Shown here one piece after another: positions 23,448 through 25,387 of a DNA stretch of 64,000 bases. The notes under the pieces are model-generated. The model did not search any database and was not told where the DNA came from. It was given only the letters and a program-made list of their open reading frames with translations. The stretch's first letter is position 1. The number at the start of each line of letters is the position of its first letter. Origin of the DNA: Isosphaera pallida ATCC 43644 (GTDB lineage Bacteria > Planctomycetota > Planctomycetia > Isosphaerales > Isosphaeraceae); contig NC_014962.1 in NCBI RefSeq assembly GCF_000186345.1, forward strand, positions 2,480,001-2,544,000, in the 5' to 3' direction. Both the position numbers and the translations under genes were made by a program.

Positions 23448-23857
23448 ATCGATACTCCTAATTACAATGGATGACGCCGCCCATCGAGACGATTGATCCA
23501 GACCGAGGCCGGCTCCCATTGACTTCGGAAACCGCGGAGGAGCGCTTTTTGCCCAGTGAATCTTACCGTCGGCGGCTTAACCTTCCCACAGGACGCCGTG
23601 CAAGAACCCACCTTCAGTGATCAACGCCATGAGGAGCGTGGCGAGAACAACCGACTTGTTCTAGCGTTGGAATCAGTCGTCCGCCATCCTCTGGGGACCA
23701 AAGCAGCGCGACCGGCCGCCCTCAACGACAACCATACATAGCGGAGTCGGAAGATGATCGCATGATGGATGAGTCGCTTGCCGGATCCTACCCCCGTTTC
23801 AGTTTCAGCAGCGGGACACGCGGCGAATCGTCTGCTGAAACGGATCGATCGGCACGC
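23448..23857. other. Intergenic region, no gene seen
   Basis: About 410 bases between the small anchored protein and the GDCCVxC gene. Short frames here have no start signals. No hairpin stands out. Confidence 0.4.
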
Positions 23858-24076
23858 TTAATGCCGGTTCTGCGCGTGTTCTTGCTGGAAAGGCGGGCAA
23901 CGCCTATTGCCGTAACTGCAAAACACGCAGCAGTCCCCGGTCTTGGGTTTCAACTCGACCGAACAGTTCGGACAGACCCAAACAATAATACACGCATGGG
24001 TTGGCATAAGGACGGTCGATCGACCATGACAGTTTGGACATGCAATTGTGCTGAACAAAAGTTTTTCTTCACTCAT
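23858..24076 (-). CDS. GDCCVxC-domain small cysteine-rich protein
   Basis: A 72-residue protein with nine cysteines: CPNC (13-16), Cys29, CPNC (35-38), then GDCCVFCSYG (47-56) and Cys60 in CPP. This is the pattern of the GDCCVxC family, in which one cysteine is replaced by selenocysteine in some members. Here the codons are TGC TGC, so it is the all-cysteine form. The two CPNC pairs suggest a metal-binding ribbon, and the GDCC motif a redox or metal-binding site. Function is not known. The start ATG 24076 overlaps the last 8 bases of hisI (ATGAGTGA), so it is translated from the same message as hisI and the DsrE-like gene. Confidence 0.8.
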   Translation of the reverse strand: MSEEKLLFSTIACPNCHGRSTVLMPTHACIIVWVCPNCSVELKPKTGDCCVFCSYGNRRCPPFQQEHAQNRH

Positions 24077-24602
24077 GGGTTATCTGATCTCTTCGGACAT
24101 TGGCTGTGAGGAGGTCAGCTCTTTCGTCAACGGTGAGCCATCCTGTGCGGTGCGATAGACTTTGAGGGGGGTCAAACACCTTTTCCTGCTCAAGGAATTC
24201 TAATGTCAAATCGGTCTCGGAGCCAAGTTGTGCCAACGCGCGAAAGAAACACGAACGGTAACCAACGTGACAGGACGCTCCGCCGTCAATCCGCACCTGG
24301 AGGAGTACGCAGTCCTGGTCATCGTCAATCAGCAACCTCACCACGCGCTGGATCAAGCCGCTTTGTTCCCCCTTGCGCCAAAGGTTGCCACGCGAGCGAG
24401 ACCAGTAATGTGCCTCGCCGGTGGCGATCGTCAGCGCCAGCGCCTCGGCGTTCATTACGCCGACCATGAGAACCTCGCGCGTGGTCGCATCCTGCGTCAC
24501 ACATGGAATCAGACCGCGTTCGTCGAACTTGGGCTGGAGTTGCGTCCCTTCCTCGATTTCAACCAAGGTGCCGCGTGGTGGAAAAGGTGGGAAGTTGATC
24601 AT
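24069..24602 (-). CDS. hisI: Phosphoribosyl-AMP cyclohydrolase
   Basis: A 177-residue single-domain HisI. It hydrolyses phosphoribosyl-AMP to ProFAR in histidine synthesis. Signature regions are HYWSRSRGNLWRKGEQSG (65-82), the Mg-binding aspartate cluster DDDQD (93-97, normally DCDxD) and the zinc-site CHVGYRSCF (Cys111, Cys118). ATG 24602 is chosen because it overlaps the DsrE-like stop codon (ATGA); the longer open frame would lie inside that gene. A C-terminal tail of about 40 residues follows the usual end of the domain. It is not linked to other his genes but sits between a DsrE-like protein and a GDCCVxC protein, which is unusual. Confidence 0.9.
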   Translation of the reverse strand: MINFPPFPPRGTLVEIEEGTQLQPKFDERGLIPCVTQDATTREVLMVGVMNAEALALTIATGEAHYWSRSRGNLWRKGEQSGLIQRVVRLLIDDDQDCVLLQVRIDGGASCHVGYRSCFFRALAQLGSETDLTLEFLEQEKVFDPPQSLSHRTGWLTVDERADLLTANVRRDQITHE

Positions 24603-24976
24603 AGCGTGATTACCTGATCCGGCATGGCTTCCGACAGCGCGGCGTAAAGCTGCGGGAAGCAGCCGCACACCACACCCCCTACCATCCCTTTGGCCTTCAC
24701 CGATCCGGTTCCGCATTGGTCGAAGGTTCCTTCGGCCAATCCCCGACGCACCGCGCATTGGTCACAGACCATCAGCAGAATCCCCTGTTCCTTGGCAATG
24801 CGGGCCAGCCTCTCTCCGACAGGATCACCAACGCGCAGGCAGAAAATGTTATCGTCAAAAAACATCATTCCGACGACCTTAGCGCCATGAATCCCCTGTT
24901 CTAGCTGTGGAAGAATCATGGTGGCCAGCTTAAAGGAACTGGCCATGTTCGTTGCAAAAACATAGGCTACCTTCAT
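24599..24976 (-). CDS. DsrE-family cysteine-rich protein
   Basis: A 125-residue soluble protein. ATG 24976 has AAGGAGAAGG directly upstream, and the open frame further upstream has no support. MKVAYVFATN and a Rossmann-like alternation of strands and helices fit the DsrE/DsrF fold, used for sulfur transfer. Six cysteines are present (46, 71, 74, 88, 104, 106), with CDQC at 71-74 and CGC at 104-106. They could form a thiol relay or metal site. It overlaps hisI by ATGA and is the first gene of a three-gene unit. A role in sulfur or selenium handling is an inference from the fold and the GDCCVxC neighbour. Confidence 0.72.
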   Translation of the reverse strand: MKVAYVFATNMASSFKLATMILPQLEQGIHGAKVVGMMFFDDNIFCLRVGDPVGERLARIAKEQGILLMVCDQCAVRRGLAEGTFDQCGTGSVKAKGMVGGVVCGCFPQLYAALSEAMPDQVITL

Positions 24977-25387
24977 TTCCTTCTCCTTATCGTCGCAGGT
25001 CGGTCTCACGCCGGGGTGCTTGGAATAACCCCACTCGACGCAATCCCGAACGAAGTCGGTGTCGTTATTGGTCTTGATCACCCCAAAAGGCGCATTCGAC
25101 GAAAGACATCGCGACTGCAATGTTCGTCGAGGATCGCGCCTAGGTTGACGCAACGCTCCTCACGGGGATGCTCCAAAGGTGTTGCCGCTGCGAAGGATCG
25201 GGCTTTTTGAGATAGCGTTCTCATGTACTATCGGGTTTGACCCGCTGGTTGTCAAGAGGGAATTGGATTTTTACGCTGGCGATGCGATAAACTGCTTGCA
25301 CAAAGGATCGACTGACAATCGTGTCGGGAAGATCTTCACCGAAGCGAATCGGCGGGTTTAAGTGAATCTAAGAATCTTTACCTTCCT
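24977..25387. other. Intergenic region upstream of the dsrE-like operon
   Basis: About 410 bases between the miaA stop and the dsrE-like start. It should contain the promoter of the three-gene operon. No coding signal or riboswitch was recognised. Confidence 0.4.

Follow-up and report, generated by a model that had tools for sequence, protein, structure and literature searches.

A probable zinc-scarcity unit in Isosphaera pallida combines a DsrE-like protein, a second HisI with an altered metal site and a GDCCVxC protein

The window analysed here is a 64,000-nucleotide stretch of the Isosphaera pallida ATCC 43644 genome (5.53 Mb, two contigs), and it holds a unit of three overlapping genes on the minus strand. 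In the 5' to 3' order of the message, they encode a SaoD/DsrE-family protein (24599..24976; 125 aa, DsrE/TusD fold, with H30, C71xxC74, C88 and C106), a HisI-only paralogue of phosphoribosyl-AMP cyclohydrolase, designated HisI2 (24069..24602; 177 aa, with D94 at the first zinc cysteine and C111 and C118 kept), and a GDCCVxC-domain protein (23858..24076; 72 aa, nine cysteines). The hisI start codon lies within the ATGA that closes the DsrE-like gene, and the GDCCVxC gene shares 8 bases with the hisI 3' end; re-reading the positions on the window confirmed the coordinates, strand and both overlaps given in an earlier note on this DNA. All three products exceed curated cut-offs: NF040913 ("DsrE_rel_ELSE", hereafter ELSE) at 207 bits (cut-off 152), PRK00051 HisI at 147 (126) and NF041374 GDCCVxC at 88 (40). 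AAGGAG stands immediately 5' of the DsrE-like gene. A candidate sigma-70 promoter (TTGACA-17-GATAGT, minus strand, 25227..25255), a consensus match only, occurs about 250 bases upstream of that gene, in a scanned stretch that holds two promoter-like sites where shuffles predict 0.7; if it is used, the predicted leader measures about 250 bases, and an Rfam search of that leader gave a single, sub-threshold match. Directly 3' of the GDCCVxC stop codon, a stem-loop without a T run (minus strand, 23793..23843) possibly marks the end of the unit; it is absent from the terminator scan, and its fold is not clearly better than that of shuffled sequences (z -1.3).

By composition and distribution, the unit looks foreign and was probably acquired horizontally. 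Its G+C content is 55% against 62% for the window, among the lowest of stretches of equal length (2/629). NF040913 occurs in one of the 45 genomes of the order, that of I. pallida itself, and above cut-off in two of 392 genomes drawn from the phylum; GDCCVxC is found at E up to 0.001 in 10 of the same number. A scan of one genome per species confirmed at least 480 NF040913 relatives. The best 80 of these, which we examined, are 70-84% identical and come from SAR11, Prochlorococcus, Nitrosomonas, Thiobacillus, Pirellulaceae, Verrucomicrobiota, Chloroflexi and others, with planctomycete names on seven of the 80.

A PRA-CH search of the I. pallida genome found two copies, and thus the second, canonical hisI that the earlier note had proposed looking for does exist (C2:307430-307651). 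In this copy the motif is the ordinary one and, by eye, its surroundings show no evident his gene, and hisG (C2:672716) lies apart from both hisI genes. Because the ordinary hisI and hisG are scattered too, a lone hisI is not odd in this genome and a second hisI is; the argument that hisI normally sits with other his genes therefore does not discriminate here. HisI2 itself scores 98 bits against Pfam PRA-CH (cut-off 27). Among the best 80 of at least 480 NF040913 loci, eight also contain a hisI gene (Alphaproteobacteria, Verrucomicrobiota, Planctomycetota, Nitrospinota). It adjoins the DsrE-like gene or stands one small frame off in L030 (divergent), L039, L048, L070, L077 and L089, and lies a few genes away in L038 and L040. 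Seven of these eight loci also hold a gene of the zinc-scarcity set defined below, and all eight genomes carry another PRA-CH. In four further genomes searched for PRA-CH, whose completeness is not stated, one has two copies and three have one. On plasmids, 738 records contain a HisI-like match; four of the six whose surroundings we read adjoin ZigA/COG0523, Fur, DUF1826, folE or thrS genes, and the HisI of a Thioclava plasmid has no zinc gene annotated within 10 kb. A hisI on plasmid NT26_p1 (L136:5010-5426) lies beside a Tn3-family transposase among merT, merC-domain and merA genes, and is possibly a backup for mercury-poisoned HisI.

These settings recall the Zur-regulated hisI2 of Pseudomonas, likewise a second hisI besides an ordinary one (PMC2770081, PMC6103462, as far as the available parts of these papers tell). 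The former counts HisI as one of nine Zur-regulon paralogue families, and the latter has hisI2 in its list of genes induced by zinc limitation in Pseudomonas protegens. Relatives of the window HisI resemble such zinc-limitation sets in clustering with COG0523/ZigA, Fur, DUF1826, folE, cysS and thrS. In contrast to the Zur-regulated hisI2, the window locus is without a zinc gene or canonical Zur box, and HisI2 is accompanied there by a DsrE-fold and a GDCCVxC protein.

The altered residue of HisI2 falls in the metal site. In HISN2, the presumed in-vivo zinc site consists of Cys126, Cys142 and Cys149, and a second site of Asp125, Asp127 and Asp129; the corresponding residues are called universally conserved in cyclohydrolases, citing D'Ordine et al. 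(available text of PMC8102479). Aligned with 1zps, HisI2 shares with canonical HisI (1zps; HISN2) the PRA-CH domain, the Asp triad, the second and third zinc cysteines (C111, C118) and the catalytic H112. It differs in that D94 replaces the first zinc cysteine, giving the motif IDDDQDC in place of xDCDxD, and in one extra residue before the CH motif. Held against a definition of HisI by three zinc cysteines plus the Asp triad, it has D94 where the first cysteine belongs. HisI2 is thus, by homology, a HisI with an altered metal site.

We compared this position across HisI proteins. Thirty distinct rows (eight identical rows dropped) comprise 15 with DDD at the motif, 12 with DCD and three with NCE. 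The DDD rows are the window protein, eight other ELSE-linked HisIs, four from plasmid zinc sets, a Nitrosomonas protein whose gene shares a contig with an ELSE locus, and that of the Thioclava plasmid. Asp accordingly stands at the first zinc cysteine in nine of nine ELSE-linked HisIs, the window protein included, and in none of the ordinary second copies of the eight ELSE-linked genomes and the window genome. In a larger set, the Asp form makes up 24 of 57 rows, again none of them an ordinary second copy of an ELSE-linked genome. A single origin of the Asp form, suggested by one clade at 99/97 in the 30-row tree, may hold but is not claimed here, as the 57-row tree does not uphold it. In the latter tree, which was built without the motif columns and carries a long-branch warning, three changes account for the 24 DDD rows, compared with 18.5 for shuffled labels.

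Asp can ligate zinc, and HisI2 keeps two of the three zinc cysteines together with the catalytic His. It might thus still be a plain zinc enzyme, the second copy adding dose or binding zinc more tightly when it is scarce. Dose is also an alternative offered in PMC2770081, where, in the part available, the HisI paralogues are reported with conserved zinc residues, in distinction to the Asp of HisI2; the two statements, made on different sets of proteins, stand side by side. Against a plain zinc enzyme, the exchanged cysteine is a ligand of the catalytic zinc from the residue group called universally conserved (PMC8102479, in part), and its replacement by Asp, frequent among the HisI rows, spares the ordinary second copies of ELSE-linked genomes. 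We consider this alternative rather unlikely.

The Asp form presumably performs the histidine step. In the phylum search, nine planctomycete genomes of one genus, 99-100% complete, yielded a single PRA-CH, of the DDD form, and all nine have HisG (G092, G113, G225, G271, G282, G343, G394, G428 and G432; loci L211-L219). As their only PRA-CH, this form must carry out the histidine step unless another enzyme does so. No zinc gene is evident by eye near the sole hisI of these genomes in stretches of 3.4 kb. Two further planctomycetes carry a DDD copy plus another PRA-CH, and one planctomycete Asp-type hisI (L220) adjoins a COG0523-like frame, as judged by eye. The DDD form is therefore not confined to zinc sets, as these nine genomes and the Thioclava plasmid show. 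The genomes that combine HisG with a sole DDD copy are also our strongest evidence against the HisI domain having left histidine synthesis.

The first protein of the unit matches NF040913 over its full length and far above the cut-off. Membership of SaoD (NF040732) was considered and rejected, the score of 120 bits falling below the cut-off of 169. Its predicted structure is confident (pLDDT 95), and the modelled fold resembles DsrEFH and TusBCD, with 2hy5_A as the top PDB match (E 9.5e-6). DsrEFH and TusBCD are sulfur carriers. The window protein differs from them in being the product of one stand-alone gene, with 19% identity to 2hy5_A, and no dsr or tus partner is evident by eye near it. 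Among the best 80 of at least 480 NF040913 proteins, H30 is kept in all 80, C71, C74 and C88 in 79 and C106 in 78, as read without gaps, so that the exceptions may be alignment slips. The conserved His and four cysteines suggest a protein that binds or hands over a metal or thiol. A pattern search for viral copies matched 162 stretches, none of which encoded a relative.

We searched the NF040913 loci for six zinc-scarcity gene types (COG0523 GTPase, ZnuA, ZnuB, Fur family, CysS and DUF1826) with single, Pfam-checked queries. A CysS paralogue is among those reported for zinc scarcity (PMC2770081, in part). At least one of the six types occurs in 41 of the best 80 of at least 480 loci, six of which match by construction because the queries were taken from them, compared with one of 39 control stretches (Fisher p 2.5e-8). 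The controls began as 40 stretches, most at round-number positions, 20 of them from ELSE-carrier genomes and 20 from planctomycetes including the window's own genome; one was dropped for overlapping a test locus, one is shortened by a contig end, five lie on contigs with an ELSE locus, and the set is unmatched to SAR11 and other marine loci. After collapsing the same best 80 at 92% or higher identity of the DsrE-like protein, 26 of 53 groups hold a zinc-set gene (p 4e-7). COG0523 alone accounts for 29 of the best 80 loci, and CysS copies occur in three. The six types are not exclusive to zinc, since ZnuA/ZnuB-type transporters may carry manganese and Fur-family regulators may serve other metals. 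None of the six is found in 39 of the best 80 loci, and 27, some on short contigs, have neither these genes nor a Zur-type box. In other settings, the NF040913 gene of Thermomicrobium roseum adjoins genes for a Fur-type repressor and for a metal ABC transporter; near that of Thermus brockianus lie genes for a GTP-binding protein and for the substrate-binding protein of a metal ABC transporter; and the Thermus thermophilus HB27 locus, on pTT27, has neither zinc nor sulfur neighbours.

Several other genes recur near the DsrE-like gene. An FAD/NAD(P) oxidoreductase of the Pyr_redox_3 type, found by clustering in six loci (among them L077:3610-4815, Pfam-checked, L038:3109-4254 and L040:3079-4251), is a candidate for a further member of the zinc-scarcity set, and a frame resembling it precedes an Asp-type hisI in L210:214-1353. 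In two Opitutales, a FeoB-like protein, with a GTPase and a Gate domain according to Pfam for L038, is encoded directly before the DsrE-like gene (L038:4251-5963, L040:4188-5963). Pirellula-type loci (L020:4385-5903, L027:4288-5819) have COG0523 together with a WD40 protein and a small CCCG-cysteine-cluster protein just before that gene; the small protein of L027 has no Pfam match.

According to the earlier note, the HisI domain might have left histidine synthesis to serve sulfur, selenium or thiol chemistry together with its two neighbours. The similarity of the DsrE-like model to DsrEFH and TusBCD would suit this proposal, as would two haloarchaeal plasmids in which NF040913 adjoins TusA, rhodanese and YeeE/YedE genes of sulfur transfer. 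Its selenocysteine lead is real, in that DsrE-like proteins containing Sec in a UxxC motif are reported (PMC1088965, with the Sargasso Sea as source, and PMC13188914; available parts of both), known there as DsrE-like. However, HisI2 scores above the HisI equivalog cut-off, its Asp form is the only PRA-CH of nine genomes with HisG, and the recurrent neighbours of NF040913 belong to the zinc set. We regard a departure of HisI2 into sulfur or selenium chemistry as highly unlikely: the sole-copy planctomycetes point to a histidine enzyme of the usual kind whose metal site has changed. Of the broader wording, "sulfur/selenium or metal-handling", the metal half holds up, with the DsrE-like protein in zinc-scarcity neighbourhoods and GDCCVxC often beside mercury or cation transport genes, and the sulfur/selenium half does not.

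Upstream of the NF040913 genes, possible regulator sites recur. We scanned up to 250 bases upstream for palindromes without a preset pattern; in 32 of the 86 loci, no more than 5% of 40 shuffles reached the best one. Allowing at most one mismatch, 25 of the best 80 of at least 480 loci carry, in the first 200 bases upstream, the pattern GTTATRNNATAAC, which we take to resemble the proteobacterial Zur box, against 0.52 expected from first-order shuffles, an expectation that errs on the kind side because the pattern was picked after the open scan. Its carriers are mostly SAR11 and other Alphaproteobacteria, and amount to seven of the 53 collapsed groups of these best 80. A different palindrome, TTGCAA-N5-TTGCAA, is present with at most two mismatches in nine of the best 80 (0.84 expected), including Marinimicrobia, Verrucomicrobiota and Pirellulaceae, and may be a second Zur-site type in Marinimicrobia, Verrucomicrobiota and Planctomycetota. 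Palindromes like it stand 5' of the DsrE-like gene in L058, L077, L084, L087 and L030.

In the window itself, neither type was found. The 414 bases upstream of the unit contain no canonical Zur box, the best match having 6 of 15 positions mismatched; a palindrome search of the upstream sequence found no Zur-type palindrome. Two weak palindromes seen by eye upstream of the unit, and a 14/16 match between this region and that 5' of one of the genome's COG0523 genes, were set aside as not beyond chance by estimate. The genome has three Fur-family, four cobW-type and one ZnuA-type matches, none of them inside the window. Elsewhere in the genome, 5' of a znuA-like operon (L143:5640-5960), lie the overlapping palindromes ACTTTTTGGTAGACCAAAAAGT and GACCAAAAAGTGCTTTTTGGTC, reminiscent of DtxR/MntR sites, so that this znuA-like transporter may be for manganese. 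The chief weakness of our case is that, beyond the identity of its genes, nothing at the window locus itself points to zinc; the zinc-scarcity neighbourhood and Zur-type boxes are seen in relatives, from which we infer zinc regulation in this genome.

The third protein belongs to the GDCCVxC-domain (seleno)protein family: all nine cysteines of the window GDCCVxC protein are invariant in the 28-row NF041374 alignment. Its fold model (pLDDT 78) has no PDB match at E below 0.001. We surveyed 69 GDCCVxC loci from plasmids, planctomycetes, viral contigs, L019 and the window, four of which supplied the transporter queries. Within 1.5 kb of GDCCVxC, a MerT-like gene is present in 28 loci, a MerP-like gene in 20, a CDF-like exporter in 12 and a DsrE-like gene in two, and 38 loci, some on short stretches, show no tagged gene. 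Of seven plasmid relatives read individually, five adjoin a mer transport gene or CDF exporter and two do not; in contrast to the window copy, none of the seven stands beside hisI. In L019, the gene order is DsrE-like, GDCCVxC, znuA-like; we found no other independent tie between GDCCVxC and zinc uptake.

These associations, and the hisI inside the mercury-resistance element of NT26_p1, raise the alternative that the unit answers poisoning by soft metals such as mercury or cadmium and not a lack of zinc, with GDCCVxC binding the toxic metal and HisI2 replacing a HisI whose cysteines are poisoned. By eye, however, no mer or efflux gene is evident next to the unit in the surrounding window stretch, and the NT26_p1 HisI keeps its first zinc cysteine. 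The DsrE-like family moreover points to zinc uptake sets, and the other DsrE-like plus GDCCVxC pair comes with a znuA-like gene. We judge a soft-metal response improbable.

The conserved three-gene co-occurrence that the earlier note proposed looking for is borne out for pairs and not for the triplet. Among the best 80 of at least 480 NF040913 loci, the DsrE-like gene is paired with hisI in eight and with GDCCVxC in one, and the full triplet occurs in none of the 86 other loci scanned (these 80 plus six further). Together with the low G+C content of the unit, this leaves room for three horizontally acquired genes that abut by chance. Two overlapping junctions on one strand speak against such an accident, as does the fact that each partner is found again with the DsrE-like gene in other bacteria, for the most part in zinc settings, and we give chance adjacency very little credence.

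We conclude that the three genes probably constitute a zinc-scarcity unit with a HisI2 isozyme, and that the whole unit was probably acquired horizontally. A Zur-like repressor would let go when zinc runs short, and one message would be made. HisI2, as a working isozyme of the zinc enzyme HisI, would take over from the zinc-dependent copy and keep the histidine step running; with Asp for one of the three catalytic-zinc cysteines, it plausibly uses another metal (Fe, Mn or Co) or tolerates low zinc. The DsrE-fold protein may bind or hand over a metal or thiol, and the GDCCVxC protein, with relatives often encoded after mercury or cation transporters, would buffer or pass on soft metal ions. Together, the two cysteine-rich proteins might serve to bind, buffer or pass on metal, or to keep thiols in order. 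The metal of HisI2 and the roles of both small proteins are putative. Nothing that we found directly supports a tie of histidine synthesis to thiol status, as once suggested for this locus; zinc status appears to be what it is tied to. A more far-reaching reading is tentative, and in our estimate somewhat short of even: NF040913 would be a general bacterial zinc-scarcity protein, from SAR11 to Chloroflexi and Planctomycetota, and HisI2 would have been rebuilt for a non-zinc metal through the Cys-to-Asp exchange, permitting zinc-free histidine synthesis under starvation with the DsrE-fold and GDCCVxC proteins as metal or thiol helpers.

Zinc-scarcity paralogue clusters and hisI2 are already known. 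The DsrE-like family in zinc sets, the GDCCVxC link and the Asp in place of a zinc cysteine in HisI2 are absent from the open-licence literature searched, as far as the accessible portions of those texts extend. Within that literature, nothing was found on GDCCVxC, on PRA-CH with zinc and Cys93, or on DsrE with Zur and zinc; the SaoD/DsrE papers give no zinc role in the parts available, and none of those on SAR11 zinc regulators concerns the DsrE-like gene by title. The NCBIfam description of NF040913 likewise names no zinc role, in distinction to the zinc-scarcity neighbourhood and Zur-type boxes found here.

The reason for a second hisI in zinc starvation is a question left open in PMC2770081, in the portion available, and our comparison offers a testable answer at the level of a residue: one zinc cysteine is gone in the HisI2 form seen here. 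The analysis also ties metal scarcity to two cysteine-rich families that are widespread and little characterised. SAR11 bacteria are very abundant in the zinc-poor ocean, and they carry the DsrE-like gene behind an apparent Zur box, so that its role would matter well beyond the genome of I. pallida.
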